A stretch of DNA of 63,603 nucleotides. It comes from Paracoccaceae bacterium. GTDB taxonomy: Bacteria > Pseudomonadota > Alphaproteobacteria > Rhodobacterales > Rhodobacteraceae. Location: the NCBI GenBank assembly GCA_030148745.1, contig JASBSV010000132.1, forward strand, positions 1 through 63,603. The letters are read 5' to 3'. This document shows positions 1,524 through 23,344 of the stretch, one piece after another. The position numbers and the translations under genes were made by a program. Positions within the stretch are counted from its first letter, which is position 1, and each line of letters begins with the position of its first letter. Below the pieces are notes generated by a model, which saw nothing but the letters and a program-made list of their open reading frames with translations, had not been told where the DNA came from and ran no database searches.

Positions 1524-2144
1524 TCAGAGCTCCGGCGCCGCTTTGGGGCTGTCTTCCACGATTTGCCCAGCCGCAGCGGTCTGAGCAGGTCCAATCGGCG
1601 CGGCGGCCTGTACATCCGCCTGCAAAATCTGTTCCGAAAAACCCTGAATCGCGGCCAGTATATCGGTCTCAGCAGCCGGCAGAAATTCTGCAAACTCTCC
1701 GGAAAATTCCCCGAACGCTGCCTTGTTGAGCGCATTAACGCCTGTCAGCACCGGTATCCCGCGCGACAGGGCCTCGGCGATGACATTGCGAAAACCGCGA
1801 CCCTCGGCCTCGTATTTGCCGAATTTGTTCAGGATCAGAAGGTCGGTCCGATCATTCAGCCGCGCTTCGACGCGCCGGGCGGCTTCGTCAAGCGCGCCCT
1901 GGTCAAGCCGGCAGCCCCGCGCATGTGTCCCAAGATCCTGACTGATCCGGATCACCGGACCGCCCGGCAGTACCTGCACATCCATGTCGCAAAGATGCCG
2001 TTGGGCGCGTTCGGAATTTATCTGAACAACTCCCGCCAACTGCCAGCCACACGCCATCAGATGCCGCGCGACGCCTGCCAAAAGACTGTCACTGGCGCCT
2101 GTTTCATTCATCGATATCGCAAATATTTTCATTCTGTTAGCCAT
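1524..2144 (-). CDS. DUF2478 family protein, last gene of the idr operon
   Basis: About 206 residues, 48 bases after idrA with this start, on the same strand. It resembles DUF2478 proteins, which are often encoded beside molybdate transport or molybdoenzyme genes and are distantly related to THEP1-type NTPases. The N-terminus (MKIFAISMNETGASDSLLAG) sits where a P-loop would be but has no GKS/T, so nucleotide binding is doubtful. The middle holds TDLLILNKFGKYEAEGRG, a conserved family segment, and the last 40 residues are alanine-rich. The start is uncertain: ATG codons at 2168, 2144 and 2132 are all possible and none has a clear ribosome binding site. I infer a role in molybdenum cofactor handling for the neighbouring oxidoreductase. 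Confidence 0.75.
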   Translation of the reverse strand: MANRMKIFAISMNETGASDSLLAGVARHLMACGWQLAGVVQINSERAQRHLCDMDVQVLPGGPVIRISQDLGTHARGCRLDQGALDEAARRVEARLNDRTDLLILNKFGKYEAEGRGFRNVIAEALSRGIPVLTGVNALNKAAFGEFSGEFAEFLPAAETDILAAIQGFSEQILQADVQAAAPIGPAQTAAAGQIVEDSPKAAPEL

Positions 2145-2192
2145 ATGTTTTGCGCTGCCGCCAGCCATTGCGGGCAGGCGGCAGCGATCTTG

Positions 2193-4856
2193 TCAGACCA
2201 CGGGTCGCGGTTTGAGAGACATTTCAAGGAAGCTGTGCTTGAACTGGGATTCGCCGATCCGCCGCAACACTCCGCGACCCAGTTTGTAGCGATAGTTCCC
2301 GCTGACCGGATCGGGCACCGCATGACAGACCGAGTTGGCCATCGAGCCGGGATAGTTGAACGATGCTTTGGCGACCCCCGGGCGCATCTCATCAGAAACG
2401 ATCGCGACGGCGACAAACTGACCGGTGGTGGTCTCAATATGACCCCGCTCCATAAGTCTAGTGAAGCTCAGATCGTCGCTCTTGATCCCGACGGGTGAGC
2501 CTGTCTGAACATAGACGGTATCATTGAATCCCTCGACCAGATCACCGGATTCGATCCCATGCGGCGCGGCATCGTCGGGGTGGATGAAGATGAACGGCCA
2601 GGGCCAGCGCTTGGCCAGATAGGGTTTGCGCAGATCGTCAAAGCCCGACTGCCATGTCTCGTTCACACGGCCATTGGTGATCCAGATCTCGCCCTTGTCG
2701 GGGCGCGGTTTGATCGCCTCGTAAAAATCGGACCAGCCGTCGTTGTTCCACGGTGTCTTCAGGATGTTGGCCTTGCCGGTCTGGGTGCCAAAGGCGTAAA
2801 GCCATTTCTGGTCATTGGTGACGCCCTCGACCTCACCCCAGTCGTTTGTCGGGTCATGCAGGCGCTTGGTGCCGATCAGCTGACCATCTTTGACCCGGAT
2901 CGGGGTTTGAATGCCGGTTGTCCCATATTCGCGCAGTTTCTCGTGGCCGCGTTTGCCTTCGGCCTTGGCTGCCACGGCAAGGGCGTGATAGTTCAGAACA
3001 CCGCCGCGTGAATAGCGCGAGGCCTCTTCAAAGATGTCGTTGGAATCCTTCCAGTCGAAGCCTTTGAAGCCCATCTTCTGGGCAAACTGCGAAATCGCGT
3101 ACCAATCGGGTTTGGCATCGCCCGGAGCGTCGTTGAACTTGGCATAAAGCCTCAGCCGGCGCTCGGCGTTGCAGCGCGTCAGATCCTGTTCGCCCCAGCC
3201 CGACGCGGGCAGAACGATATCGGCATATTGGGTGTTCAAGGGATCAACCGGATAGATATCGCTGTCGACCAGCACCATACCGCCGGATTCCACACGTTTG
3301 ATCAGGGTTTCGATCAGATGATCGCGATCAAGGTTGCTGGGATGGTGGGGATTGCGCACCGTCAGATCGGCCACACGGTCCGAAAGTTTCTGCGACGACA
3401 GCATCGCGGCGAACCATGTCAGGCCCACGGTCCACATAAAGCGCACCTTGCCGTCCATCACCCAGCGGTCAACGTTCAGCGATTTCTTGCGCCGGCCGGG
3501 GTATTTTTCCGGGCTGAGGAAGCCTTTCTTGCCGCCTGCGCCCATGCCGCCGCGCTGATGGCCACCGCCGCGCGACACGACCCGGCCGGGTCGGTTACCT
3601 GCACCATTGATCAGGGCCAGCGAGGCGAATGAGGCCGTGTTCATATAGTTGTTGGACCAGTAGTTGCCCTTTTCCAGCATGAACGAGGTTTTGGGCCGCG
3701 AGCCATCGGCGCGCGGTTTGGCGATCATCTCGGCTGCTTTCACGATCAGTTCGGGGTCGATCCCGGTGATGCGCGATGCCTCGGACAGCTCGGCCGCTTT
3801 TTCATTGGTGATGAACTTCTGGTAATCGTCCCAGTTGCTTTGCCAGCGGCCCCATGTCGTGCGCCACTGCCATTGGGTGTTGCGGGTGCCGCGGCCATAG
3901 CCGCTTTCGATCTCCCATTTATTGTTGGTCCATTTGTCGATGAACTCCTGATCCTGCCATCCGTTTTCGATGATGATCCGGGCCAAGGCCATATGCAGAA
4001 CCGTATCGGTGCCGGGAATGATCGGAAGCCACAGCCCCCCGTTTTTGAGTGCCCATTCAACGCCCATCGTGCGGTGCGGCGTGACAAAGATCATCTTTTT
4101 GTCCGGCACATCGCCATACATCATCCATTCAGTGAAAAGCACCGTCTTGGTCTCGTAAGGGTCAGTGCCCGAGATAAAGGCCACCTCGCATTTGCCCCAG
4201 TCGTCATAAGATGCCGAGAAGGAGTTGATCCCGCTGTCGTCCAGCCCGGCGGCATCATTGCCCGCCTGCGGCTTGTCATGCGGGGCATAGACCGGTGTGC
4301 CGATCGCCTGATTGACCAGTTTCGAGATCGCATAGGTGTTCTCGAAATATTCGTAGGAATAGGTTTTCATACCCCAGGCATGTTCGCCATGTTCCTTCAG
4401 CACATGTTTGGAAACTGCGGCCATGACATCGGTCGCCAGATCCCATGAAACAGGCGTCAGAACCCCGCCGATACGGATCATCGGGTGGGTCAGGCGCTCG
4501 CGCGTAGGGGTTTGGGGGTTATAGATCTTTTGCGCCAGGGTTCCGCCCCGCACCGAATAATTGCCGTTCCTGTTGACGACCTCGGCGTCCGGGTCGGGCA
4601 GGACGATCATATGGTGCTGGATGCCGTTATGCATCCCGATGTTATGTTGCGAGGCCGCGATCCACGGCGCGCCGCCGGTCGGAAAATCGACGCCAAAGGC
4701 GTTCTGATCCGCCTTGGTGCCGCCTTCGGTGCCGACGGGCCAGCGGTAAACCTTGTAACTGCACGCCACGATGCAATAGCTGCAGGCGGTGGTGATCACC
4801 TCGGCATCGGGGGGCGGAAGCGGGATATATTGGTTGTTGGTTACCGATTTTGACAT
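2193..4856 (-). CDS. idrA: Iodate reductase catalytic subunit (AioA-family molybdopterin oxidoreductase)
   Basis: An 887-residue bis-MGD molybdoenzyme of the DMSO reductase superfamily, closest by eye to arsenite oxidase AioA. C25-x2-C28-x3-C32 followed by S101 (in YSVRGG) where other family members have a fourth Cys predicts a [3Fe-4S] cluster as in AioA. The RGGGHQRGG segment (R429 to H433) matches the AioA R419/H423 region. The AioA segment carrying H195 and E203 is instead APHDKPQAGNDAAG, so arsenite is not the expected substrate. Neighbours are a Rieske subunit and two di-haem peroxidases, the published arrangement of iodate reductase (IdrABP1P2 of Pseudomonas sp. SCT and Denitromonas). 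There is no signal peptide; export would ride on the Tat signal of IdrB. It should reduce iodate in the periplasm. Substrate is inferred, family is firm. Confidence 0.88.
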   Translation of the reverse strand: MSKSVTNNQYIPLPPPDAEVITTACSYCIVACSYKVYRWPVGTEGGTKADQNAFGVDFPTGGAPWIAASQHNIGMHNGIQHHMIVLPDPDAEVVNRNGNYSVRGGTLAQKIYNPQTPTRERLTHPMIRIGGVLTPVSWDLATDVMAAVSKHVLKEHGEHAWGMKTYSYEYFENTYAISKLVNQAIGTPVYAPHDKPQAGNDAAGLDDSGINSFSASYDDWGKCEVAFISGTDPYETKTVLFTEWMMYGDVPDKKMIFVTPHRTMGVEWALKNGGLWLPIIPGTDTVLHMALARIIIENGWQDQEFIDKWTNNKWEIESGYGRGTRNTQWQWRTTWGRWQSNWDDYQKFITNEKAAELSEASRITGIDPELIVKAAEMIAKPRADGSRPKTSFMLEKGNYWSNNYMNTASFASLALINGAGNRPGRVVSRGGGHQRGGMGAGGKKGFLSPEKYPGRRKKSLNVDRWVMDGKVRFMWTVGLTWFAAMLSSQKLSDRVADLTVRNPHHPSNLDRDHLIETLIKRVESGGMVLVDSDIYPVDPLNTQYADIVLPASGWGEQDLTRCNAERRLRLYAKFNDAPGDAKPDWYAISQFAQKMGFKGFDWKDSNDIFEEASRYSRGGVLNYHALAVAAKAEGKRGHEKLREYGTTGIQTPIRVKDGQLIGTKRLHDPTNDWGEVEGVTNDQKWLYAFGTQTGKANILKTPWNNDGWSDFYEAIKPRPDKGEIWITNGRVNETWQSGFDDLRKPYLAKRWPWPFIFIHPDDAAPHGIESGDLVEGFNDTVYVQTGSPVGIKSDDLSFTRLMERGHIETTTGQFVAVAIVSDEMRPGVAKASFNYPGSMANSVCHAVPDPVSGNYRYKLGRGVLRRIGESQFKHSFLEMSLKPRPVV

Positions 4857-4872
4857 TTTCTGATGCTCCCTC

Positions 4873-5409
4873 TCAAACGCCCGAAGGGTTGCGGTTATAG
4901 CCGTAGAACAGCCCCATCACCCCCGTTGCCAGAATGTCATCGCCATCCTGTTCCAAAACGATTTGCGGCAGGCTGGCCGCCGAATGGCCCGATACGATCA
5001 TCCCGTGTTTGGTCAGATCGAAGGTCGACAGATGCAGTGGGCAGGGGCCCAGAACGCTGATCTCGGGCCGGAATGTGCTGGCGTCCAGATAGCCGCCCAT
5101 ATGCGGGCAGATGGTATTGAACGCCACGACCGAGCGGTTTTCGCCGATGCCCCCGCCGGCCGGTTCATTCAGCATGACCAGAATGTTTTCGATATCGTCA
5201 TTAGGGTAGGTGAATGAGACCGGAACGCCCGGTTTCAGCGCCGACATCTTGCCGATGGGCTTGTGGGCGTAAGAGCTGCTGACCAGCTCCTGAGCATCGG
5301 CACCCTGTCCGAATGTCGCCAGAACGGTGACGGCGCTGCCACCCAGGATCAGGAAGCTGCGGCGATCGACGCAGCCTATTGATTTCGATATTTTGGATTG
5401 CTCTGTCAT
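4873..5409 (-). CDS. idrB: Iodate reductase Rieske [2Fe-2S] subunit, Tat-exported
   Basis: 178 residues, 16 bases upstream of idrA. The N-terminus carries a twin-arginine signal (DRRSFLILGGSAVTVLATFG, ending near AQA/E), expected to carry the folded IdrA-IdrB complex to the periplasm. Rieske ligands are CPH (in CPHMGGYLD) and CPLH (in GPCPLHLST). In bc1 Rieske proteins each ligand loop holds an extra Cys forming a disulfide; here those positions are Gly and Leu, so the bridge is absent. Some arsenite oxidase small subunits also lack it. The role is electron transfer to the [3Fe-4S]/Mo centre of IdrA. The start overlaps the stop of the upstream peroxidase gene by 4 bases, indicating translational coupling. 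Confidence 0.88.
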   Translation of the reverse strand: MTEQSKISKSIGCVDRRSFLILGGSAVTVLATFGQGADAQELVSSSYAHKPIGKMSALKPGVPVSFTYPNDDIENILVMLNEPAGGGIGENRSVVAFNTICPHMGGYLDASTFRPEISVLGPCPLHLSTFDLTKHGMIVSGHSAASLPQIVLEQDGDDILATGVMGLFYGYNRNPSGV

Positions 5410-6527
5410 TTCGCGATCTCCGCCCAGGTTGCAGTTGCGGGAAGGTTGGGTTCGGTGACTGTCAGCGGTTCATCCATTGACAGCGCTTCTAGGAACGCGA
5501 CCAGATCGGTCTTTTCGGTAGCGGTCAGGCCAAGGGCCTTGAGGTTGGGGTTTCCCGCCCCGCCGCCGGCATCGTAGAAATCGACCACATCGGCCAGCGT
5601 CGCCATTGTGCCATTGTGCATATAGGGGTCGGTCCAGCGCAGCTCGCGCAGAGAGGGCACGCGGAACTTGCCGACGTCGCCCGGCCGCTTGGTCTTGAAA
5701 TACAGGCCCAGATCGCCCCCGGTTGTGTGATAGGTCGCTTCGGTCACGCCCTTGGCATAGATCTCGTAACGCTGGGTGATCTGGGACAGCGGATCGCCCG
5801 AAAATTCCGGTGCTGTCGGAACGCCGATGTCATAAAACCGCTGATTGCTGGCCAGCGCGCCGTTGTGACAGGCAATGCAGCCTCCTTTGCCGTTGAAAAC
5901 CTCCATCCCCGCCTTGGCCGAGGCTGACAGCGCTGATTTGTCGCCCGCCACATAGCGGTCAAAGGGCACTTTCTTGGGGTCGGTGACGATGGTGCGTTCA
6001 AAAGCGGCAATCGCGGCCCAGGCCTGTGCGGCATTTGGGTATTCGGTGCCAAAGACCTTCTTGAAGGCGGCCACATATTCGGGCGAAAATCGCAGACGCA
6101 TTTCGGCCATCGAGCCGTCAACGTTGCCGCCCACGGCCCCGCCGGCGGCCGTCTTAGCCTGCGCCTCAAGCGATTGCGAACTGCCGTCCCAGAACAGCTT
6201 GTTATAATAGGCGCTGTTCAGGATGGTCTGGGAATTGCGCCAGTGCATGCTGCCGGGATAGCCGAAAGATATCGTCCCCCCGTTGCCCCATCCTAGATCG
6301 GGCGAATGACAGGCCGAACAGGGCGATGAGGTGTCGCCCGACAGGCGGCCATCGAAAAACAGCTTTTTGCCAAGCTCTATCTTGTCCAGCGTCATCGGAT
6401 TGTCGACCGGGATCGGTGGCGGCGGCAAGGCGGCCAGAGGCGGCACACCGTCGCCGGCCATTGCGATCACTGGCGTGACTGCCAGTAATGCGAGCGGGCC
6501 AATGCTGTTCAGGAATTTGGCGATCAT
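5406..6527 (-). CDS. idrP1: Di-haem cytochrome c peroxidase family protein (IdrP1-like)
   Basis: 373 residues from the ATG at 6527, which has GAGGAG about 8 bases upstream; an upstream in-frame extension lacks a signal peptide and is rejected. A Sec signal peptide (residues 1 to about 24, ending AMA) precedes a MauG/CcpA-type peroxidase fold with two haem-binding motifs, CSACH (70-74) and CIACH (217-221). The C-terminal segment FRVPSLREL...PYMHNG is the usual CCP signature. In characterised iodate reductase loci two such proteins accompany IdrAB and are thought to dispose of H2O2 or reactive iodine intermediates made during iodate reduction. The P1/P2 labels follow gene order only (A, B, P1, P2) and could be reversed. 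The gene overlaps idrB by 4 bases. Confidence 0.85.
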   Translation of the reverse strand: MIAKFLNSIGPLALLAVTPVIAMAGDGVPPLAALPPPPIPVDNPMTLDKIELGKKLFFDGRLSGDTSSPCSACHSPDLGWGNGGTISFGYPGSMHWRNSQTILNSAYYNKLFWDGSSQSLEAQAKTAAGGAVGGNVDGSMAEMRLRFSPEYVAAFKKVFGTEYPNAAQAWAAIAAFERTIVTDPKKVPFDRYVAGDKSALSASAKAGMEVFNGKGGCIACHNGALASNQRFYDIGVPTAPEFSGDPLSQITQRYEIYAKGVTEATYHTTGGDLGLYFKTKRPGDVGKFRVPSLRELRWTDPYMHNGTMATLADVVDFYDAGGGAGNPNLKALGLTATEKTDLVAFLEALSMDEPLTVTEPNLPATATWAEIAK

Positions 6528-6538
6528 GATCTGTCTCC

Positions 6539-7672
6539 TCAGTTCTGGCCGGCTTGGCGAAGCTGGTAATCGGGCAGTTGCGGAACGCCGGCATCGGGCG
6601 CATCGCCGGTCAGGCTTTGCAGAAAGGCGACCAGATCGGATTGGTCCTGCGCGCTCAGACCCAGCGGTTTGATCCGCCTGTCCTTGTTCGCCACGCTGCC
6701 GCCGCCGTCGTTGTAAAAGGAGACCACATCGCCAAGCGTGGTATAGACGCCCGAATGCATGTAGGGGCCGGTTTGCCCGATATCCCAAAGCGACGGGGTG
6801 GCGAATTTTCCGATGCTGGCCTCATCTTTGGTGACGACGTAATTACCGACGTCCGAGCGCAGGTTCATATAGTTCGGCACGCCTTGGGTTGCGTAATGGC
6901 GCAAGAGGGTGATCTGGCGCTGGGCGGCTTCCTCGGTCGTGGCGGTAATCAGTTCGGGGTTATCGGGCGCGCCGGTTGCATGCACATCGCCATCCGACAG
7001 CATCGGGCCCGAATGGCAGGCCGCACAGCCCGCCTTGCCGGTGAACAGAGCAAGCCCGCGCAGGGCCGGTTCGTTCAGCGCGGTCTGGTCGCCATTCTGG
7101 TATTTGTCAAAGGGGGCGTTTTTGGTGCGGATCGTTTTGAGAAATTCGCCGATCGCGCCGTACATCTTGCCGCCGTAGGGATCACTTCCATAGGCCTTTT
7201 TGAACATCTCGACATATTCGGGAACCTGTTTCAGCCGTTCCTGTCCAAGCCGGCTGTCAAGGTTCATCGTATGCGCCTCGACCAGCATGTCGCGCACCAG
7301 CGTGCCCAGATCATTGCCGTCCAGCCGTGCGTCCCACATGAAAGTGTTGCGGCTGGCGACATTGAACAGATCCGGCGCGTTGCGGAAATACAAAACACCG
7401 GGATATCCGTCCGACAGCGCCTGACCGTCGCCCCAGCCCTTGGCGGGATCGTGACAGGTTGAGCATGAGACACCGGCATCCCCGGACATGCGCGCATCGA
7501 AAAACAACAGACGGCCCAGGGCGGCGCGATCAGGGTTGACCTTTGGCGCGGCGGGAAGCGGGCCCAGGGTGGGCGCCTCATCTGCCGCGGCGGGCAAAGC
7601 CAGTGCCACCAGCAAAAGCGCGGCGGACCCATTCATGCGGCTGGCAAAAGTCTTTGGTCGGTTTATATGCAT
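6539..7672 (-). CDS. idrP2: Di-haem cytochrome c peroxidase family protein (IdrP2-like)
   Basis: 377 residues from the ATG at 7672, preceded by AAGAGG at a good distance. It begins with a Sec signal peptide (SAALLLVALALPAAADE), so the mature protein is periplasmic. Haem motifs are CSTCH (70-74) and CAACH (216-220), and the C-terminus has the CCP signature FATPSLWDIG...PYMHSG. It is clearly paralogous to the next gene, with the first haem motif at the same position, but the two are diverged and not a recent copy. It is the promoter-proximal gene of the idr operon, 11 bases before the second peroxidase. The expected role is detoxification of peroxide or iodine intermediates. The P2 label is by gene order only. 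Confidence 0.84.
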   Translation of the reverse strand: MHINRPKTFASRMNGSAALLLVALALPAAADEAPTLGPLPAAPKVNPDRAALGRLLFFDARMSGDAGVSCSTCHDPAKGWGDGQALSDGYPGVLYFRNAPDLFNVASRNTFMWDARLDGNDLGTLVRDMLVEAHTMNLDSRLGQERLKQVPEYVEMFKKAYGSDPYGGKMYGAIGEFLKTIRTKNAPFDKYQNGDQTALNEPALRGLALFTGKAGCAACHSGPMLSDGDVHATGAPDNPELITATTEEAAQRQITLLRHYATQGVPNYMNLRSDVGNYVVTKDEASIGKFATPSLWDIGQTGPYMHSGVYTTLGDVVSFYNDGGGSVANKDRRIKPLGLSAQDQSDLVAFLQSLTGDAPDAGVPQLPDYQLRQAGQN

Positions 7673-7788: not shown

Positions 7789-7806
7789 GTTACCCCCAAG
7801 GTTACC
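7789..7806. promoter_or_regulatory. GTTACC direct repeat upstream of the idr operon
   Basis: GTTACC occurs at 7789-7794 and again at 7801-7806, a 12-base spacing close to one helical turn, within the 200 bases between the idrP2 start and the end of the kinase gene. OmpR-family regulators typically bind direct repeats spaced by about one turn, and an OmpR-family regulator is encoded at 10173-10898. This is a candidate operator only. Confidence 0.35.
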
Positions 7807-7872
7807 GGTTGCTACGAATTGTGGCAGAATGTGACAGCTGCCCGGCGCGCCGCAATGGTGCTTGCGCCCTCG

Positions 7873-10122
7873 TCAGTCGCCGCTCTGCGGGTCCAGCATC
7901 CCGCGCACTTCGATAGCCAGCGTTGCCGGATCAATCGGTTTACGTAAAAACAGCGGCCGGCCGCCGGGGATCGAGATCTTTCCGGGCCGGTAGGCGCTGC
8001 AAAAGATGATCGGGCACTGCGGATAAAGCTGTCGCAGCCGGACCGCGAAATCTTCTCCGTTCATTTGCGGCATAGCGATATCGCAGATCAGCAGATCGGG
8101 CTGGCCGTCCTTGGTGCCAAGCCGTTCAAGCGCGATCACCGGCGAGGTAAACGCTTCTACCCGATAGCCCAGCCGCATCAGATAGCGACGGAAGGTGGCG
8201 GCAACCTCGGTTTCGTCATCCACGATCATCAGGCGTTCATCGCCGCGCGGCGCGCCGGGCGTCTCCGGCGGCCTGTCGGCGGTGACCGGCTCTGCCCCCG
8301 GAAGGGTTAGAATAAAGCGGGTCCCTTTGCCCTTTGTGCTTTCGACATCGATCTGTCCGCCCATATCGGTCACCAGACCATGCACAACCGACAGCCCCAG
8401 CCCCGAGCCCTTGCCCAAAGGTTTGGTGGTGAAAAAGGCGTCAAAGACATGGTCCATCACCTCGGGCGTCATGCCCGGGCCGTCATCGGCGACGCTCAAT
8501 CCGATCCATCCGTCGCGGCGCGGCTTCAGACCGGCGGGCGGGCTGGACAGTTTCTGGATGCTGATCTTGATATGACCCGGATCGGTGCCGATCGCCTCGA
8601 CCGCATTGTGCAGAAGGTTCATCAGGATCTGATGGAGATGCGTGGGATCGCCCAGCACGGCGATATCGCGATCCGGGGCCGCAGTTTCAATCTGAACCGT
8701 TGGCGGTGCCGAGGCCTGCACAAGGCGCATAACCTCGTTTGTGATGGCGCAGAGGTTCGTTGGCGACGGACGGCCCGGCTCGCGGCGAGTAAAGATCAGC
8801 AGCTGCCCGATCAGGCTCTGGGCGCGCCGCGCCGCGATCTCGATCTGGTCGATCTCATAGGCGATTTCGCTGCCTTCGCGGGCATCCAGCCCGGCCAGAT
8901 GCGCGGCCCCCAGAATCGTGGTCAGGATGTTCTTGAAGTCATGCGCGATACCGCCGGCCAAAAGGCCCGCGACCTCGATTTTTTGCGAACGGGCGACCTG
9001 TTCGCGCGCCAGCCGCTTTTCGGTGATATCTTCGGCGATACCAATAAAATTGCGTACATCGCCCTCGGGGCCAAGCAGCGGCAGGATCGTGGTTTCGGCC
9101 CAATAGCTGTCGCCATTCTTGCGCCGGTTGCGAAACACGCCCCGCCAAGTTTCCCCGCGCGCCAGACAGGCGCGCAGTTCGGCGTAAACCTCGCCCGGGG
9201 TGTCCCCCGATTGCAGGAACTTCGGCGTCTTGCCAATTACCTCACCGCGCGACCAGCCGGTGCTTTGCTCGAATTGGCGGTTGGCATAAAGGATATGGGC
9301 GTTGGTGTCGGTCATGAAGATCGTGGCCGGGCTTTGTTCAACGGCGGCTGCCAGACGTTTTTGCGAATATTCCAGCCGCCGCCGCGCGGTAAGCTGTTCA
9401 GAGAGATGCAAGGTCGCACTGCGCATGTCGCGTAGTAAGACATACAAAAGATAGGCCAGCGCCAGAGCCGCCATCGCGAGGGCCGCAAGGGCCACAAAGC
9501 CGATCCCGATCAGGTTATCGCCATGCCGGACTGCGCTGATGATCCGCTCGGTGCTTAGCCGCCGGTTTTCCCGCCAGATGTTTTCCAGATCCCGAAGCGC
9601 CGCGATCGCTGCGGTATCGCTGACGCGGACCTGCCGGTCGGTGCGGGCCACGTTCCAGCCCTCGGCGGCGGCCTGCATCGCCACCGGCAGTTTCGACTGA
9701 TATTCGGCAATGACCGCCCCGATGGTTTCCAGTGCGCGCCGCTCCTCGGGGGTCAGCGGCTCACTCAGGAACTCTTTCATCACATGATCGAACTGATCAA
9801 TCTGGCGCAGCATTTCCTGGCGATAGAGGTCATCCTGGCGCAAGACGTAGTTCTTGAAGTTATGGATGATGCCGCCATAACCCAGATAGCCGCGCAGCGA
9901 GCTGATCCAGACCCCCTTCTTTTCGGCATTGCCGGCATAATTGGACCAGCTTGCCGCGATTTCGTGGAATTGCATCCGCGTCTGACTGCCAAGGTATAGC
10001 CCGCTGGCCACGGTCATCATCAGCAAGAGCGCGGCAGCAGCCCCGATACGATAGGCGCGGTTAAGGGTCTTTGCGGCGTCCACATCGCCTCCGGTATTCC
10101 TGAACCTCAGTCTCATTTGCAC
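7873..10122 (-). CDS. Membrane hybrid sensor histidine kinase (PAS-HisKA-HATPase-REC)
   Basis: 749 residues. Two membrane segments (about 26-47 and 203-230) frame a helical periplasmic domain of about 155 residues containing GYLGYGGIIHNFKNYVLR. A PAS domain follows (about 255-370, with PAC-type EDITEKR), then the HisKA phospho-acceptor H394 (GGIAHDFKN), HATPase N box around N506 (LLHNAVEA), G boxes (DDGPGM, GKGSGLGLS) and a C-terminal receiver with D681 (LLICDIAMPQ). The stop lies 200 bases upstream of idrP2 on the same strand. The divergent gene encodes an OmpR-type regulator 50 bases away, so the two probably form a pair. Location suggests control of the iodate reductase operon; this is inference. 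No cofactor-binding signature was recognised in the periplasmic domain. Confidence 0.88.
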   Translation of the reverse strand: MQMRLRFRNTGGDVDAAKTLNRAYRIGAAAALLLMMTVASGLYLGSQTRMQFHEIAASWSNYAGNAEKKGVWISSLRGYLGYGGIIHNFKNYVLRQDDLYRQEMLRQIDQFDHVMKEFLSEPLTPEERRALETIGAVIAEYQSKLPVAMQAAAEGWNVARTDRQVRVSDTAAIAALRDLENIWRENRRLSTERIISAVRHGDNLIGIGFVALAALAMAALALAYLLYVLLRDMRSATLHLSEQLTARRRLEYSQKRLAAAVEQSPATIFMTDTNAHILYANRQFEQSTGWSRGEVIGKTPKFLQSGDTPGEVYAELRACLARGETWRGVFRNRRKNGDSYWAETTILPLLGPEGDVRNFIGIAEDITEKRLAREQVARSQKIEVAGLLAGGIAHDFKNILTTILGAAHLAGLDAREGSEIAYEIDQIEIAARRAQSLIGQLLIFTRREPGRPSPTNLCAITNEVMRLVQASAPPTVQIETAAPDRDIAVLGDPTHLHQILMNLLHNAVEAIGTDPGHIKISIQKLSSPPAGLKPRRDGWIGLSVADDGPGMTPEVMDHVFDAFFTTKPLGKGSGLGLSVVHGLVTDMGGQIDVESTKGKGTRFILTLPGAEPVTADRPPETPGAPRGDERLMIVDDETEVAATFRRYLMRLGYRVEAFTSPVIALERLGTKDGQPDLLICDIAMPQMNGEDFAVRLRQLYPQCPIIFCSAYRPGKISIPGGRPLFLRKPIDPATLAIEVRGMLDPQSGD

Positions 10123-10172
10123 AGCGGGCGCAAATCTGCAAAATTAATTTGATCCAATCGGGTAGGCGTCAC

Positions 10173-10898
10173 ATGCAAGAGCAGATTCTGGTCGTCGACG
10201 ACGATCGCCAACTGACCTCGTTTCTGGAAAGATTGCTGGGCAAGCACGGGTTTCTGGCAACAGCGGTCGGTTCGGCCGCACAGATGAGGGCCGCGCTGGC
10301 GCGGCACAGGTTCGATCTGATCGTTCTGGATATCGGGCTGCCGGACAGTGACGGCATGGAACTGACGCGCGAATTGCGGCGCGAACACAGGATACCGATC
10401 GTCATGCTGACCGCCCGTGACGAGGTTTTTGACCGCATCGTCGGTCTGGAACTGGGGGCTGATGATTATGTGACCAAACCCTTTGAGCCGCGCGAGTTGC
10501 TGGCGCGGATCAAGGCGGTGCTGCGCCGCACAAGCGCCGGTGATCAGGACGACGGTTTTGCGCTGCCGGCGCGGCGCCATCTGTCATTTGGCGGGCTGAC
10601 GCTCGATCTTTATGCCCGCGCGCTGACCTGCGACAAGGATGAGAGCGCAATCCCGCTGACCGAGCGTGAGTTTTTGCTTCTGCGCGTTCTGGCCGAGCAT
10701 AGTGGTCAGGCGTTGAGCCGCGAGCACATTCTTACCCTCGTCTATGGTAATTCAACCATGATCACCGACCGCGCCATCGACACCCAGATGTCGCGGCTGC
10801 GCCGCAAACTGGCCGAATATACCGAACCGGACCAGACGATTATTCGCACTGTCCATGGCGAGGGGTATGTTCTAGCCGCCTATGTCACAGCGGCCTGA
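10173..10898 (+). CDS. OmpR/PhoB-family response regulator
   Basis: 241 residues from the ATG at 10173; a TTG 24 bases upstream is in frame but less likely. The receiver domain (1-120) has the acidic triad D10/D11, phosphorylation site D53 (IVLDIGLPDSDG) and the conserved lysine in YVTKPFEP. The C-terminal winged helix (about 135-235) has the PhoB-type ending TIIRTVHGEGYVL. It is transcribed divergently from the hybrid histidine kinase gene, with 50 bases between starts, and is probably its partner or the output of a shared relay. Targets may include the idr operon, where a spaced direct repeat lies upstream. The specific target is inferred from position. Confidence 0.9.
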   Translation: MQEQILVVDDDRQLTSFLERLLGKHGFLATAVGSAAQMRAALARHRFDLIVLDIGLPDSDGMELTRELRREHRIPIVMLTARDEVFDRIVGLELGADDYVTKPFEPRELLARIKAVLRRTSAGDQDDGFALPARRHLSFGGLTLDLYARALTCDKDESAIPLTEREFLLLRVLAEHSGQALSREHILTLVYGNSTMITDRAIDTQMSRLRRKLAEYTEPDQTIIRTVHGEGYVLAAYVTAA

Positions 10899-11026
10899 GC
10901 GGGCAAACCGGGCCGCTTGGGCCAGAGGCGGGGCCTGATTTTTTGCTTTACTCAAAGGCGCGCGCCGGACCATCCTGAGCTCAGGGGCCCGCCCGGTGGG
11001 CTTTGCCGCTGGTTTGCGAGACGAAA

Positions 11027-12889
11027 ATGTCGGCCAGAAGCCACATTCAGGAGATCGACCGTGCGCTGCAGGGCCAGCACCTGGACCGCGACGAATATGT
11101 TGTGCAATCCTGGCGGCGCTGTGTGAACGATCACGGGCTTGATCCGCTCAGCGCCAAACCGGCCTATGTGGTCCCCGAGCGCGAGCTGCGCCGCCATCAG
11201 GAGCAGTCGGAAAAGCTGATCTCGATCGCGCGGTCGGGGCTTCAGCAGCTTTTTCAGCAGGTCGCGGGGCAGAATTACGTGGTTCTTCTTGCCGATACCG
11301 AAGGCGTGACCGTCGATTTCTTTGGCGACCGGAATTTCGAGGATACCCTGCGCGCCTCGGGGCTTCATATGGGCATAAACTGGTCCGAGCATGTCGCCGG
11401 TACCTGCGGTGTGGGCGCCTGCCTTGCCACCGGCGGCGCGGTCACGGTGCATCAGCAGGATCATTTCGACATAAAACACACTCAGCTCAGCTGCAGCGCG
11501 GCGCCGATATTCGACACATCCGGGCGGTTGACGGCGGTGCTTGATCTGTCGCTCTTGCGCGCGCCGCAACCCAAGGTCAGCCAGCGACTGGCGCTGCATC
11601 TGGTCAGGGCCTCGGCGCGGCGGATCGAGTTGGCCAATCTGATGGCTCTGATGCGGGACGAGTGGATCCTGCGTTTCTCGCAAATGCCGGAGTTTCTGGA
11701 TGTCGATCCCGAGGCGGCGATCGCGGTGAACGGATCGGGCCGCATCATCGCCGTTACGCGCGGCGCGGTCGAGATCCTGCGCACGGCGCGCCCGGGGCCG
11801 GTGGAACATGTGGTGATCGGCAACCGGCTTGAGGATTTCTTTGCGCTCAGCGTGGATGACCTGCCAACCCTGACCCCGGCGCGCCCGACAGAGGAGCGTG
11901 TTATTCATCTGTGCAATGGTGCGGCATTCTTTGGCCACGCAATCGCGCCGCAGCGCATAAGGAGCAGGCGCGGCGATATCGCCCCCGGCCTGCCGGCGCC
12001 GCTGCGCGGGCTCAGCGGCGGGGACGCGGCGATGCACCAGCTTTTGCACAAGGCCGAAAGGCTGGCGCGCGGGGCGATGTCGGTTCTGATCGCCGGGCCA
12101 AGCGGCAGTGGCAAGAACCATCTGGCCCGGGCGATCCATGAAACGCGCGCGCCGCAGGCGCCTTTCGTAACCGTGAACTGCGCCGATATGTCCGGCGGCG
12201 CCCTTGAGGCTGCGCTTTTCGGCACGCGCGCGGGGCAGCGGGGGCTGATTGATGCCGCGCGGGGCGGCACGCTGGTTCTCGATGAGGTCGGAGAAATGCC
12301 GCTGGCCACACAGGCGCGTCTGGCGCGGGTGCTCTTGGACAGCCAGATCATGGCGACCGGGCAGCGCAGCAAGGTGCTTATACCCACCAAGATCATATCG
12401 ATCACCGCGCATGATCTGCCCGCGCTGGTGGCAAAGGGGGCGTTTCGCGCCGATCTTCTGTTTCGCGTCGCCGCGGTTCAGCTTGACATGCCCGCCCTGC
12501 GCGCGCGCGGCGATCTGGACTGGCTGATCGACCGGCTGCTTCGGATCCGCACGATCAGCCTGCCCGATACTTATCAGCTGACGCCGGCGGCACGGATGGA
12601 ACTGCACCGCCGCGACTGGCCCGGCAATATTCGAGAGCTGATCAATACGCTTGATGTCGCGGTGGCGCTTGCGGCGGGGCGGGTGATCGATCTTGAGGAT
12701 CTGCCAGATCCGGTCCTGCGGGGCGGCGATGACGGCGCGGCCACACAAGGGGCGGCTGATGCCGGCGATCTGCGCGCGGTTCTGGCGATCTGCGGCTGGA
12801 ATGTTGCCCGCGCGGCGCGCCGTCTGGGGGTTGACCGCTCGACCGTGCACCGCCGGATGCGGCGTCAGGGGATCAGGCGCCCCGGCTGA
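11027..12889 (+). CDS. acoR: AcoR-type transcriptional activator lacking the GAFTGA loop
   Basis: 620 residues from the ATG at 11027 (a TTG at 11003 is in frame). A GAF-like sensory region spans about 50-200 (GINWSEHVAGTCGVGACLAT and CSAAPIFD are typical of AcoR), then an AAA+ domain with Walker A GPSGSGKN (357-364) and Walker B LVLDEVGEM, then a Fis-type helix-turn-helix at the C-terminus (NVARAARRLGVDRSTVHRRM). Between FGT (398-400) and RGGTLVLDE only about a dozen residues remain where sigma-54 activators carry the GAFTGA loop, so direct sigma-54 activation is unlikely. It sits directly upstream of the aco-like operon, with repeated TGCAACA palindromes between, and most likely controls it. 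Confidence 0.87.
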   Translation: MSARSHIQEIDRALQGQHLDRDEYVVQSWRRCVNDHGLDPLSAKPAYVVPERELRRHQEQSEKLISIARSGLQQLFQQVAGQNYVVLLADTEGVTVDFFGDRNFEDTLRASGLHMGINWSEHVAGTCGVGACLATGGAVTVHQQDHFDIKHTQLSCSAAPIFDTSGRLTAVLDLSLLRAPQPKVSQRLALHLVRASARRIELANLMALMRDEWILRFSQMPEFLDVDPEAAIAVNGSGRIIAVTRGAVEILRTARPGPVEHVVIGNRLEDFFALSVDDLPTLTPARPTEERVIHLCNGAAFFGHAIAPQRIRSRRGDIAPGLPAPLRGLSGGDAAMHQLLHKAERLARGAMSVLIAGPSGSGKNHLARAIHETRAPQAPFVTVNCADMSGGALEAALFGTRAGQRGLIDAARGGTLVLDEVGEMPLATQARLARVLLDSQIMATGQRSKVLIPTKIISITAHDLPALVAKGAFRADLLFRVAAVQLDMPALRARGDLDWLIDRLLRIRTISLPDTYQLTPAARMELHRRDWPGNIRELINTLDVAVALAAGRVIDLEDLPDPVLRGGDDGAATQGAADAGDLRAVLAICGWNVARAARRLGVDRSTVHRRMRRQGIRRPG

Positions 12890-12956: not shown

Positions 12957-13161
12957 TTTAATGCCGCCCGCCCGCCGCGCGGCGCCGTTTGCCGTTTGAT
13001 CGCGCGCGGCTCTGTTCGGCACAGTGGTTACCAGCAGCGAGGGAGACGCCGGGGAGGTGGCGATGCATCGCAAGCGGCGCAACTCTTGCTCTGCAAGGCT
13101 CGGCCGATCACCGGAAGGTGGCGTTCAGGTCCGGGCCGCGACATGCCAAGGGAGAAAGATC

Positions 13162-14154
13162 ATGGACCCGACGAAAGACCAGAAACTCTGGATGTACGAA
13201 AACATGGTGCTAAGCCGCAGGTTCGAGGAGCGGATTGAAAAGATCTATCTCGAAGGCAAGACACCCGCCTTTAACATGGCCGACGGCCCGATCCCCGGCG
13301 AGATGCATTTGTCCAACGGACAAGAGCCGGTCGCGGTGGGCGTCTGTGCCCATCTGACAGCAGAGGACGCGGTAACCGCAACCCATCGCCCGCACCATCA
13401 GGCGATTGCCAAAGGCGTTGACCTCAAAGCGATGGCAGCCGAGATTTTCGGCAAGGCCACAGGCCTGTCGGGCGGTCGCGGGGGGCATATGCATCTGTTC
13501 GATCCCTCTGTCAATTTTGCCTGCGCCGGCATCATCGCCCAGGGCTGCGGGCCGGCCTGTGGCACGGCCCTGTCGCGCAAGTTGCAAGGCAAGCCCGGCG
13601 TTGCAGTATCCTTTCTGGGCGAAGGGGCGGCCAATCAGGGCGCCTTTCACGAGGCGATGAACCTTGCTGCGCTTTGGAAGCTTCCGGTGATCTTTGTGAT
13701 CGAAGATAACGCCTGGGGCATTTCGGTCGCCAAAAGCGATGCCACATCCGTGCCACGCAATGATGTGCGCGCCGCCGGCTATGGAATACCCGGACATTAT
13801 ATCGAGGGGAACGACCCCTATGCGATCTTCGATGTGGCGGGTCAGGCCATTGCCCGCGCCCGCGCCGGCGAGGGGCCGACCCTGATCGAGGTGGAAACCT
13901 ACCGGCTTGCCGGTCATTTCATGGGCGATGCCGAACAATACCGTCCCAAGGGCGAAAAGGAGGCCCTTTTTGCGCGCGATCCGATCCCGGCGATGCGCGC
14001 AAGACTGATTGCCGATGGCGATGCGACCGAAAAGGATCTGGACCGGATCGAAGCCCGCGCCGCCGAAACGGTGGATGAGGCAATCCAATTTGCCCGTGAC
14101 AGCGCTCTGGCGCCCGAAACGGACGCTTTGACGGCCGTCTTTGCAACACAGTGA
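13162..14154 (+). CDS. acoA: Acetoin dehydrogenase E1 component, alpha subunit
   Basis: 330 residues from the ATG at 13162, which follows GGGAGA; the upstream in-frame extension is low-complexity and rejected. It is a thiamine-diphosphate-dependent E1 alpha of the acetoin/pyruvate dehydrogenase family. The ThDP/Mg motif runs from GEGAANQG to the N of VIEDN. Phospho-loop type sequence VPRNDVRAAGYGIPG is also present. With E1 beta it would cleave acetoin (or another 2-oxo or acyloin substrate) to acetaldehyde and an acetyl group transferred to a lipoyl domain. The AcoR-type regulator upstream and the short operon favour acetoin, but a different C4 substrate cannot be excluded. Confidence 0.85.
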   Translation: MDPTKDQKLWMYENMVLSRRFEERIEKIYLEGKTPAFNMADGPIPGEMHLSNGQEPVAVGVCAHLTAEDAVTATHRPHHQAIAKGVDLKAMAAEIFGKATGLSGGRGGHMHLFDPSVNFACAGIIAQGCGPACGTALSRKLQGKPGVAVSFLGEGAANQGAFHEAMNLAALWKLPVIFVIEDNAWGISVAKSDATSVPRNDVRAAGYGIPGHYIEGNDPYAIFDVAGQAIARARAGEGPTLIEVETYRLAGHFMGDAEQYRPKGEKEALFARDPIPAMRARLIADGDATEKDLDRIEARAAETVDEAIQFARDSALAPETDALTAVFATQ

Positions 14155-14172
14155 AAAGGGGAGGGGATAGAT

Positions 14173-15189
14173 ATGCTTGATACTCAGACAAATGAGCGCC
14201 GCCTGACGATCGCGCGGGCAATGGCCGAGGCCATTCAGCAAGAGATGCAGGCCGACGAGCGGGTTTTTGTTATGGGCGAAGATATTGGCGCGCTGGGCGG
14301 TGTTTTCGGCAATACCCGCGGGCTGGTCGATGAATTCGGGCGCGAGCGCGTCCGCGATACGCCAATTTCCGAAACCGCCTTTATCTCGGCCGCTGTCGGC
14401 GCGGCGATGGATGGAATGCGCCCGGTGGTCGAGCTGATGTTCGTCGATTTCTTTGGGGTCTGTTTCGACGCGATTTACAATCTGATGGCGAAAAACACCT
14501 ATTTCTCGGGCGGCAATTGCGCGGTGCCGATGGTTCTGATGACCTCCACCGGGGGCGGATATTCGGATGCCGGCCAGCATTCGCAATGCCTTTACGGCAC
14601 TTTCGCGCATCTGCCGGGGATGAAGGTCGTCTCGCCCTCGAACGCCTATGACGCCAAGGGGCTGATGACCGCCGCCATGCGCGATGACAGCCCGGTTGTC
14701 TATATGTTCCACAAGGGTTTGCAGGGCATGGGATGGCTGGGCACCGAAGAGGGCGCGATCGTCGATACCCCTGAAACCGGCTATACCGTCGAGATCGGCA
14801 AGGCGCGTGTTGTACGCGAAGGCAAGGATGTGACGCTGGTGGGTCTGGCCATGGGGGTGCATAACGCGCTGAAAGCGGCTGACAAGCTTGCCGAAGAGGG
14901 TGTCAGCGCCGAGGTTGTCGATCTTGTCTCGCTGGTGCCGCTGGATCGTGAAACGGTGCTCAACTCGGTCGCCAAAACCGGCCGGCTCATCGTGGTGGAT
15001 GAAGATTACCACAGCTATGGCGTATCAGGCGAAATCATTGCCAGCGTTTGCGAGCATGATGTCTCGAAGCTCAAGGCCGCGCCGAAACGGGTGACATATC
15101 CCGATGTGCCGATCCCCTATGCCCGGCATATGGAGCAATTCTGCCTGCCCAACCCCGACAAGATCGTCGCGGCCTATAAGGCGATGTAA
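14173..15189 (+). CDS. acoB: Acetoin dehydrogenase E1 component, beta subunit
   Basis: 338 residues, 18 bases after acoA with a GGGGAGGGG binding site upstream. It is a typical transketolase-like E1 beta: an N-terminal pyrimidine-binding domain with FVMGEDIGALGGVFG and ISETAFISAAVGAA, a central MTSTGGGYSDAGQHSQ segment, and a C-terminal transketolase C domain (VVDLVSLVPLD, IVVDEDYHSYG). Length matches AcoB/PdhB (about 325-340). It forms the alpha2beta2 E1 with the preceding gene. A 9-bp-arm hairpin lies between it and the downstream lipoyl gene. Confidence 0.87.
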   Translation: MLDTQTNERRLTIARAMAEAIQQEMQADERVFVMGEDIGALGGVFGNTRGLVDEFGRERVRDTPISETAFISAAVGAAMDGMRPVVELMFVDFFGVCFDAIYNLMAKNTYFSGGNCAVPMVLMTSTGGGYSDAGQHSQCLYGTFAHLPGMKVVSPSNAYDAKGLMTAAMRDDSPVVYMFHKGLQGMGWLGTEEGAIVDTPETGYTVEIGKARVVREGKDVTLVGLAMGVHNALKAADKLAEEGVSAEVVDLVSLVPLDRETVLNSVAKTGRLIVVDEDYHSYGVSGEIIASVCEHDVSKLKAAPKRVTYPDVPIPYARHMEQFCLPNPDKIVAAYKAM

Positions 15190-15201
15190 CGGCGCAAATC
15201 T

Positions 15202-15231
15202 CCGATTGCCGCGCCGCCGCGTGGCAATCGG
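15202..15231 (+). other. Intercistronic hairpin between acoB and the lipoyl-carrier gene
   Basis: CCGATTGCC (15202-15210) and GGCAATCGG (15223-15231) are exact inverted repeats with a 12-base GC-rich loop, 13 bases after the acoB stop and 26 bases before the next start. No T-run follows, so a full terminator is unlikely. It could stabilise the upstream E1 mRNA or lower readthrough, setting the ratio of E1 to E2 parts. Confidence 0.5.
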
Positions 15232-15256
15232 TGGATTGAAGACAAGGAAGAAATCT

Positions 15257-15490
15257 ATGACGACGGATGTGAAAATCGCCGAGGATTTATGGGACACAGA
15301 CAGCGAAGCGGTGATCACCGCATGGTTCGTGAAAGACGGAGGAAAGGTTGAAAAGGGCGCGCTTCTGGCCGAGGTGATGACCGAGAAAATTCAGCATGAG
15401 ATTAAATCCCCGGCTGAGGGCGCCGTGTCGATCCTTAAAAAGACAGATGAGATCGTGAAAAAGGGCGATGTGATCGCGCGCATCGAATGA
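15257..15490 (+). CDS. Stand-alone lipoyl carrier domain protein (E2 N-terminal part)
   Basis: 77 residues, a single biotinyl/lipoyl domain. The lipoylation site is K44 in MTEKIQHEIKSP, between the two halves of the usual beta-barrel (WFVKDGGKVEKG and DEIVKKGDVIARIE). The ATG at 15257 follows GGAAGAA. In ordinary E2 proteins this domain is fused to the peripheral-subunit-binding and catalytic domains; here it is a free protein whose stop overlaps the start of the catalytic-domain gene by 4 bases. It should shuttle acetyl groups from E1 to E2 and be reoxidised by an E3 encoded elsewhere. Confidence 0.88.
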   Translation: MTTDVKIAEDLWDTDSEAVITAWFVKDGGKVEKGALLAEVMTEKIQHEIKSPAEGAVSILKKTDEIVKKGDVIARIE

Positions 15491-16167
15491 CCGGCGAAAT
15501 AACCACCGTTCCCCTGCGCGGGGTGCGCGGGATGATCGCCGACAAGATGGTCAAAAGCCTGACCGAGGCGGCGCAGCTGACCCATCATGCGACCGCCGGG
15601 CTGAACGGGCTTGAGGCGCGCAAAGCCTGGCTTGCCGGGCAGGGGACCAAGGTTTCGGTCGAGGACCTGTTGATGGAGGCCGTAACCTCGGTCATCGCCC
15701 GCCATCGGGGTGTCAACGGCACGGTCGAAGGGCGCGAGATCCGCCTCTCGCGGCCTATTCATCTGAGCGTCGCGATGCAGATGCCCGGCGATCTGCTGGT
15801 TGCTCCGGCAATTTTCGATGCCCAGAACCTGGACGCCAAGGAACTGAGCCGGGCGCGCCACGATCTGGCCGCGCGGGCGAAAATCAACGGGCTGACAGCA
15901 TCAGAGATGACCGGCGGCACATTCACCATCAGCAATCTGGGGCTTAGCCGCGTGCATTATTTCACGCCCATTTTGAACGCGCCGCAGATTGCCATTCTTG
16001 GGGTGGGCTGCGCGCGCGAGAGGGCGGTCGCCACTCATGACGGTGTTGAGTTTCACCCCTTTATCGGCCTGTCCCTGACCTTTGATCATCGCGCTATTGA
16101 CGGTGCCCCGGCAGCGGCGTTTCTGAGCGATCTTTGCGAAACGGTCGAAGGGATGTCGGGTGATTGA
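15487..16167 (+). CDS. Stand-alone E2 acyltransferase catalytic domain
   Basis: 226 residues matching only the 2-oxoacid dehydrogenase acyltransferase catalytic domain. It starts at VPLRGVRGMIADKMVKSL, the usual domain beginning, and contains FTISNLGLSRVHYFTPILN and the active-site motif DHRAIDG near the C-terminus. No lipoyl domain or peripheral-subunit-binding domain is fused, so E3 docking must differ or be absent. It would transfer the acetyl group from the separate lipoyl carrier to CoA. It overlaps the carrier gene by 4 bases and the ligase gene by 8, so the parts are translationally coupled. Confidence 0.88.
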   Translation: MTGEITTVPLRGVRGMIADKMVKSLTEAAQLTHHATAGLNGLEARKAWLAGQGTKVSVEDLLMEAVTSVIARHRGVNGTVEGREIRLSRPIHLSVAMQMPGDLLVAPAIFDAQNLDAKELSRARHDLAARAKINGLTASEMTGGTFTISNLGLSRVHYFTPILNAPQIAILGVGCARERAVATHDGVEFHPFIGLSLTFDHRAIDGAPAAAFLSDLCETVEGMSGD

Positions 16168-16843
16168 ACAGATAGCAACCGCCACAGCGCTGCGGCGCGA
16201 GGCGGTTCTTCTTGAGGATGTCGCGCGCCATCCCGATCATTGTCATCTGTTCTTCTGGCAGGGCGCGCAATCGCTCGTGGCGCCCGAAAAGATCGGCCGC
16301 AACCCCGGGTTCGAGCGTGTAAGCGCCCGGCTCGGTCACGCCGGATGGCCGGTGCATCTGCGCAATACCGGCGGGGATGTCACACCGCAGGGGCCGGGTA
16401 TCGTCAATGTCACGCTGGTCTATGCCCTGCCGCCCGGCGCGGCCGATATCGCGGGCAGTTTTGAGCGTCTGTGCAGCCCGATCGAGCATGCGCTGGGCGA
16501 TGGTGCATCGCGCGGGCGCATTGCCGGGGCGTTTTGCGACGGCGCACATAACGTGCTGATCGGCGGGCGAAAGTTTGCCGGCACCGCGCAGCGTTTTCGC
16601 CGCTGTTACACTCAGCGTGATCGCTTTGCGGTTCTGGCCCATGCCCTGATGCTGATCGCGCCCGTGACCCAGGCGCCGATTACCGCGATCAACAGCTTTC
16701 TGCGCGAATTGGGAGAGCCGCGGGTGATCCGGCGCGAAGCTCATGGCGCTTTGCCCGCCGGATGCGCCCGCGATGAATTTCTGTCCCGGCTGATGCAGCG
16801 TTATCAGGAAATTTTACCTGCGACGGCTGCGGATCGGGGATGA
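16160..16843 (+). CDS. Lipoate-protein ligase family protein dedicated to the aco-like operon
   Basis: 227 residues from a GTG at 16160 that overlaps the E2 stop by 8 bases. It resembles the BPL/LplA/LipB fold: VAPEKIGRNPGFERVSARLG stands for the substrate-binding start, VHLRNTGGDVTPQGPGIVNV matches the RR-S/TGGGxVxHxxGnxN region of LplA, and FCDGAHNVLIGGRKFAGTAQ matches the (D)G.YD..V.G.KiaG(T/S)AQ lipoate/ATP site with the catalytic lysine (GGRKFAGTA). Its position points to attachment of lipoate to K44 of the free carrier two genes upstream. It may use scavenged lipoate or octanoate. Confidence 0.8.
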   Translation: MIEQIATATALRREAVLLEDVARHPDHCHLFFWQGAQSLVAPEKIGRNPGFERVSARLGHAGWPVHLRNTGGDVTPQGPGIVNVTLVYALPPGAADIAGSFERLCSPIEHALGDGASRGRIAGAFCDGAHNVLIGGRKFAGTAQRFRRCYTQRDRFAVLAHALMLIAPVTQAPITAINSFLRELGEPRVIRREAHGALPAGCARDEFLSRLMQRYQEILPATAADRG

Positions 16844-18074: not shown

Positions 18075-19738
<1,664 letters not shown>

Positions 19739-19742
<4 letters not shown>

Positions 19743-23267: not shown

Positions 23268-23308
23268 CCGCCGACTCACCCTCTTGTTAAACTCGATCTC
23301 ATATGTTT

Positions 23309-23322
23309 TATGTATGCACATA
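23309..23322. promoter_or_regulatory. Candidate HutC operator between hutI and hutF
   Basis: TATGT-ATGC-ACATA at 23309-23322 has perfect 5-base inverted arms around a 4-base centre, in the AT-rich 77-base gap shared by the divergent hutI and hutF promoters. HutC repressors of the GntR/HutC subfamily bind symmetric TGTATxTACA-like sites, and hutC is encoded in the same cluster. Urocanate would be the expected inducer. Confidence 0.5.
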
Positions 23323-23344
23323 ATAATCTGTCAAGACGAGCTTC

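Follow-up and report, generated by a model that had tools for sequence, protein, structure and literature searches.

A probable complete periplasmic iodate reductase operon with its own putative regulatory module in a Rhodobacteraceae-like bacterium

Does an arsenite oxidase-like molybdoenzyme gene that stands beside a Rieske subunit and two di-haem protein genes belong to an iodate reductase (Idr), and if so, how would the enzyme be controlled and what would the di-haem proteins do? We addressed these questions in the window, by which we mean the whole analysed stretch of 63,603 nucleotides. The comparisons described below make it very probable that the window carries a complete periplasmic Idr operon together with its own regulatory module, and that the host is a Rhodobacteraceae-like bacterium from the marine Roseovarius/Rhodobacter group.

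All five genes of the leftward operon announced by the original prediction are present on the minus strand at 1524–7672, transcribed in the order idrP2, idrP1, idrB, idrA, DUF2478, and supported by Pfam and NCBIfam matches (Table 1). They are tightly packed, with an intergenic spacing of −4 to 24 bases, and idrB overlaps the idrP1 stop. The start of idrP1 is the ATG at 6527, the longer listed ORF beginning too early, and the DUF2478 start is, by homology, probably at 2132 and not at 2168.

Table 1. Features of the idr locus in the window, with the evidence for each assignment.
Feature	Position	Strand	Evidence
idrP2	6539–7672	minus	Pfam PF03150 (CCP_MauG); two CXXCH
idrP1	5406–6527	minus	Pfam PF03150 (CCP_MauG); two CXXCH
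idrB, Rieske [2Fe-2S] subunit with Tat signal	4873–5409	minus	PF00355, TIGR02694, DRRSFL
idrA, catalytic subunit (bis-MGD molybdoenzyme, [3Fe-4S])	2193–4856	minus	arsenite_ox_L, IdrA clade
DUF2478 gene, final operon gene	1524–2168	minus	PF10649, 164 bits
Four decameric direct repeats, putative response-regulator site of the idr promoter	7796–7835	minus	PWM
Hybrid sensor histidine kinase, putative idr sensor	7873–10122	minus	Pfam domains; conserved place in relatives
OmpR/TorR-type response regulator, divergent from the kinase	10149–10898 (start perhaps 10173)	plus	Response_reg + Trans_reg_C

The window thus shows the arrangement by which idr loci are recognised, with idrA, idrB and a pair of di-haem genes side by side. 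Since nearly all related loci whose flanks are long enough, in groups as far apart as Alphaproteobacteria, Planctomycetota and Chloroflexota, have these four genes in the same order, the operon is not a chance arrangement. That two peroxidase genes always precede idrAB has been reported (PMC8801600). The P2-P1-B-A order had been pointed out for this locus; it is indeed present, but we rejected it as a peculiarity, because it is the canonical order across related loci. The name idrABP1P2 differs from the order of transcription.

IdrA matched the NCBIfam model arsenite_ox_L with 438 bits, along with Rieske_3, Molybdopterin and Molydop_binding, and it exceeded the NCBIfam arsenite oxidase cut-off (TIGR02693), a name that annotated IdrA relatives carry as well. 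Scanning one genome per species, we found 80 close relatives of IdrA. Identity reached 83% with Aliiroseovarius sp. S1339, 79% with Roseovarius azorensis, 74% with Notoacmeibacter marinus and 67% with Denitromonas iodatirespirans IR-12, as compared to about 30% with AioA proteins. In a quickly computed tree of 64 rows, all 50 IdrA rows fell on one side of a branch with a support of 100, while the nine AioA rows lay outside. The AioA-IdrA branch is long, yet the window protein is nested deep inside the IdrA group, where it sits among alphaproteobacterial sequences between N. marinus and R. azorensis. The placement that would have pointed to an arsenite oxidase was not seen.

The cofactor motifs, preserved in each of the four core proteins, agree with this assignment. 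IdrA carries a CX2CX3C motif at residue 25, as expected for a [3Fe-4S] cluster, although the distant Ser of CX2CX3CX70S could not be placed exactly. IdrB has a Rieske domain scoring 92.5 bits against TIGR02694, just under the AioB cut-off, and its twin-arginine motif fits the proposed Tat export. The Rieske motif, CXHX19CX2H, is one residue longer than the reported X18 spacing, a feature shared with the alphaproteobacterial IdrB group.

A close likeness is the idr locus of R. azorensis, which has the same seven-gene unit of regulator, kinase, P2, P1, B, A and DUF2478 and the same four decamer repeats in front of idrP2. It differs from the window in that a small gene for a c-type cytochrome is inserted after the kinase gene, before idrP2. 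Such a gene, a likely electron donor, was seen in the kinase–idrP2 interval of two Roseovarius loci (L038:3900–4330 and L039:5700–6110, the latter from R. azorensis). The idr islands of D. iodatirespirans IR-12 and Azoarcus share the idrABP1P2 core in the same order and an IdrA identity of 65–67%, but they are adjoined by a sigma-54-type regulator and the kinase belonging to it, no DUF2478 gene was found downstream in them, and their IdrB has the X18 spacing.

Several of these relatives have been studied physiologically. R. azorensis and N. marinus reduce iodate in static culture, and idrA of R. azorensis is induced by 0.1 µM iodate (PMC11445184); an IR-12 idrA mutant shows no growth with iodate (PMC8692401, summarised in PMC11445184). 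Together with the clade placement, iodate reduction by close relatives with the same operon and the failure of this mutant support the iodate reductase reading of the original prediction. The wider proposal that the host could respire or detoxify iodate stands less evenly. The closest tested relatives reduce iodate mainly at low oxygen and do not grow anaerobically on it (PMC11445184), so that respiration is the less secure half of the proposal and the operon may be an electron sink.

The chance that the operon serves iodate detoxification or electron-sink disposal, and not energy-conserving respiration, is by our estimate close to even. R. azorensis, N. marinus and A. sediminilitoris all follow this low-oxygen pattern (PMC11445184), but relatives among the Betaproteobacteria do grow by respiring iodate (PMC8692401, PMC10149662), and NarG and genes for anaerobic ubiquinone synthesis occur in the host as well. 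Its assembly (2.87 Mb, 87% complete) contains NarG (2120 bits), UbiU, UbiV and six COX1-family subunits, a set fitting a facultative low-oxygen respirer. No 16S gene was found in the assembly; MetRS encoded on the same contig shares 81% identity with its R. azorensis counterpart and 78–80% with those of other Rhodobacteraceae, as compared to about 30% with those of other alphaproteobacterial idr carriers, so the contig is not a stray and the operon belongs to a Rhodobacteraceae-like organism.

The two di-haem proteins had been described as peroxidases. Two genes of the di-haem bCCP/MauG superfamily are indeed present, but the catalytic residues do not support the peroxidase label. We aligned 71 IdrP1 and 63 IdrP2 sequences with Nitrosomonas bCCP (1iqc), Geobacter CcpA/MacA (4aal, 3hq6) and MbnH (6e1c). 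At the position of the Met ligand of the six-coordinate haem in bCCPs, Tyr was found in 67 of the 71 IdrP1 and 62 of the 63 IdrP2 sequences, as in MauG/MbnH, most of the exceptions having Phe or His and belonging to a divergent group of betaproteobacterial loci. In this group, IdrP1 of three loci (L088, L089 and L092) has Phe in place of Tyr and IdrP2 of L089 has His, so the six-coordinate haem should differ there. In the window the residue is Tyr322 of IdrP1 (a numbering that counts four residues ahead of the ATG) and Tyr320 of IdrP2.

The distal pocket is changed as well. The distal Glu is kept in none of the 71 IdrP1 and none of the 63 IdrP2 sequences, with Ala or Gly in IdrP1 and mainly Phe or Thr in IdrP2; this comparison is limited to bCCPs, the MbnH Glu region apparently having been shifted by the aligner. 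The distal Pro is lost throughout both sets, and the distal Gln is kept in 70 of the 71 IdrP1 but lost in IdrP2. The window proteins follow suit: IdrP1 keeps Gln and lacks Pro and Glu, and IdrP2 lacks all three. An alignment slip does not explain these losses, because the stretch aligns gap-free to the bCCPs. The Trp between the haems is conserved in nearly all IdrP1 and IdrP2. IdrP2 has in addition invariant Arg127, Asp139, Arg141 and Arg146, and mostly Asp128, Glu132 and His134, a residue set indicating strong constraint and not a decayed copy.

A Foldseek search with the IdrP2 model returned bCCP, MauG and MbnH structures, bCCP and MauG being inseparable by predicted fold, whereas the residue-level alignment did separate IdrP from bCCP. 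The best PDB sequence match of IdrP1 was MbnH (6e1c), and its scores against the curated MauG and MbnH models were 207 and 202 bits, as compared to cut-offs of 444 and 363. Judged by these residues and scores, IdrP1 and IdrP2 fall outside the canonical bCCPs, lacking the Met ligand and the complete distal Gln/Pro/Glu set, and they belong with MauG/MbnH only in part: the alignment with 6e1c predicts a Tyr-His six-coordinate haem, and the distal Glu and scores above the curated cut-offs are missing.

The BthA study gives the ligands as Met-His for the bCCP haem and Tyr-His for the MauG haem, and describes the distal Gln/Pro/Glu as conserved across bCCPs, MauG and BthA (PMC6405878). IdrP thus resembles MauG, MbnH and BthA in the Tyr sixth ligand of the six-coordinate haem and in the Trp between the haems, but differs from them in that IdrP1 lacks the distal Pro and Glu, and IdrP2 the Gln as well. 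In the same study, a Glu-to-Gln change in BthA impaired peroxidase activity, and Tyr-ligated BthA was still a peroxidase.

Both published models, those of IR-12 and SCT, assign H2O2 removal to IdrP (PMC8692401, which also describes the SCT model). With the Met ligand, distal Glu and Pro absent, this role rests on the family name; it has no support from the active-site residues as aligned here, and the accepted job of these proteins needs retesting. We consider it somewhat improbable that IdrP1 and IdrP2 act as ordinary cytochrome c peroxidases, clearing H2O2 formed in iodate reduction. Their superfamily, fold, two haem c sites and inter-haem Trp are those of such enzymes, idrP is induced with idrA (PMC11445184), and IdrP was found with IdrA in an active gel band (PMC10149662); BthA shows, moreover, that peroxidase activity can persist with a Tyr ligand. 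Against it stand the Met-to-Tyr replacement and the missing distal Glu and Pro, in IdrP2 also Gln, given that the Glu-to-Gln change cost BthA part of its activity (PMC6405878).

A different function may be suggested, tentatively and as a rather unlikely one. IdrP1 and IdrP2 could form their own di-haem class and not be H2O2 peroxidases, combining a MauG-type Tyr-ligated haem with a rebuilt distal pocket, and could either reduce a reactive iodine product of IdrAB, e.g., hypoiodous acid to iodide with cytochrome c electrons, or oxidatively mature IdrAB. Were this true, the abiotic disproportionation or chlorite dismutase of current models would be unnecessary. Our search of the open-licence literature for iodate together with MauG found nothing. 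We also considered chlorite dismutase-dependent HIO removal, as in the SCT model, and set it aside, having found no PF06778 protein in the assembly. A second AioA-like protein was likewise not found there; both absences are weak because the assembly is 87% complete.

The arsenite oxidases themselves (AioAB of NT-26, Nitrobacter, Rhodobacter CZR27 and Thermus) share the subunit plan and cofactors of IdrAB, but form a separate clade, have a Glu-containing pocket, are neighboured by ars/aioXSR genes and lack paired di-haem genes. At the residues that we take, from AioA structures, to bind arsenite, the window IdrA keeps His, Arg and His, and has Asp for Glu and GGHQR (with Arg435) for GGHQE; in 14 alignment columns the two families are fixed for different residues. 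The scanned ORFs of the window include no ars, aioX or aioR gene, unlike most of the AioA loci examined, and the absence of paired di-haem genes from the latter agrees with what had been said of arsenite oxidase loci. It is therefore highly improbable that the enzyme is an AioAB arsenite oxidase that happens to adjoin two di-haem proteins: AioA is the nearest characterised fold, TIGR02693 is passed and true AioA occurs in Rhodobacteraceae-like genomes (e.g., the same-genus genome G001), but the tree, the far higher identity to IdrA, the pocket residues and the neighbouring genes speak strongly against this identity.

The idr unit is larger than five genes: in Alphaproteobacteria it also includes a kinase, a response regulator and promoter repeats, which the original prediction did not mention and which belong to the same conserved unit. 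Pfam domains of the kinase comprise a periplasmic sensor, PAS, HisKA, HATPase and a receiver. In nine to ten idr loci of Alphaproteobacteria, the corresponding position holds a kinase of 50–60% identity, accompanied in nine by a regulator partner of 52–60% identity (the pair in L034, L036, L037, L038, L039, L041, L042, L045 and L101; the kinase also in L073). The H-box near residue 396 reads HDFKN in the window and HDFNN in the other nine idr kinases. Many beta- and gammaproteobacterial idr loci have, in place of the hybrid kinase/OmpR-type pair, a kinase coupled to a sigma-54-type regulator, and the regulator pair of Azoarcus DN11 is AtoSC-like (PMC10149662).

Between the kinase stop and idrP2, the pair-bearing alphaproteobacterial loci have four ten-base direct repeats, GTCACAnnnn, which read in the window, on the minus strand, GTCACATTCT GCCACAATTC GTAGCAACCG GTAACCTTGG. 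A PWM built from nine other loci, with the window left out, scored 24.8 bits at this site, as compared to 2.1 bits for the next best match on either strand of the whole 63.6 kb and 6.3 bits for the best of 12 Markov-simulated windows. In left-out tests the best match lay at the locus's own site in eight of nine loci, and in L034 at the same place on the opposite strand. The PWM found no clear repeats in L101, which has both kinase and regulator, and none in the sampled loci with the sigma-54 pair. The PWM also gave a second, seemingly incidental match of 14.4 bits in L029, some 2.8 kb beyond idrA and within what appears to be a coding region.

OmpR-family regulators typically have sites made of direct repeats about ten bases long, and we infer that the regulator binds the decamers, which are thus a putative site. 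Their nearest likeness is the tor boxes of the TMAO system (PMC9239176). As in TorS/TorR, a hybrid kinase and an OmpR-family regulator stand by an operon that encodes a periplasmic molybdoenzyme and carries direct repeats at the promoter; the window differs in having no adjoining TorT-like binding protein, no HPt domain found by Pfam in the kinase, the repeat GTCACAnnnn and a regulator that scores 196 bits against the TorR model, below its cut-off. The open-licence literature on idr and response regulators yielded nothing beyond mention of a two-component system.

A DUF2478 gene also lies 3' of idrA in six related loci (L037, L038, L039, L041, L042 and L045). The best PDB match of the protein by predicted fold was THEP1/thymidine-kinase-like and weak (E 3e-4), and nothing on its function was found in the open-licence literature. 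A second DUF2478 gene of the same genome (L120:5203–8269; contig C140, about 43.2–46.3 kb) adjoins an SCP2/UbiT-like gene, ubiU and ubiV, genes of anaerobic ubiquinone synthesis, which suggests that DUF2478 is tied to low-oxygen respiration more than to iodate. A radical SAM gene adjoins this cluster as well.

IdrA was found in 20 of 395 genomes of the host family, four of them of the window type, the window host included. The remaining IdrA proteins are about 50–54% identical to the window type and, where placed in the tree, nearer the Vibrio type. The two lineages, whose IdrA proteins are about 52% identical, sit in different genera, the non-window type being the commoner; their presence in one family is consistent with horizontal spread. 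Base composition gave no clear signal of a horizontal island (GC 60% in the idr stretch and 60–64% elsewhere in the window).

Elsewhere in the window we noted a TupABC-like tungstate/molybdate ABC transporter (45834–48084, minus), a possible oxyanion supply for molybdoenzymes, with a DUF3306 protein (40494–41126) and a large 4Fe-4S protein (41309–43273) near it. Acetoin-dehydrogenase-like E1/E2 and lipoate ligase genes (13024–16843, plus), preceded by a sigma-54 GAF activator (AcoR/DhaR-like, 11003–12889), are probably unrelated to idr. Histidine degradation genes occupy 18075–24712 (urocanase, N-formylglutamate amidohydrolase, aromatic amino acid lyase, HutF-like, amidohydrolase).

A working scheme for the operon would run as follows. 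At low oxygen and in the presence of iodate, the membrane kinase would signal to the TorR/OmpR-type regulator, which, on the four repeats, would switch on P2-P1-B-A-DUF2478. Folded IdrA with Mo-bisMGD would be exported via the Tat signal of IdrB, and quinol would supply electrons, which bc1 and a c-type cytochrome would relay to the IdrB Rieske centre, the 3Fe-4S cluster of IdrA and Mo, where iodate would give up oxygen. The IdrP proteins may handle a reactive product of this step, and DUF2478 probably assists molybdoenzyme supply or assembly. What our comparisons show directly are the genes, the clade, the motifs and the conservation of module and repeats. Iodate reduction, its dependence on idrA and its induction by iodate are taken from papers on relatives; the regulator–repeat link, the electron route and the roles of IdrP and DUF2478 are what we infer.

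Iodate reducers in marine Alphaproteobacteria were known already, and the operon of the window is one more, ordinary set. New, at the level of sequence comparison, are a control module and its repeats conserved in Alphaproteobacteria, and the family-wide lack of peroxidase residues in IdrP. The role of IdrP1 and IdrP2 as H2O2 peroxidases, used in both published models, is directly testable. The sensor, regulator and promoter repeats common to alphaproteobacterial idr operons are a candidate for the sensing of sub-micromolar iodate, in a group whose iodate reducers supply iodide to the surface ocean and thereby contribute to ozone loss.
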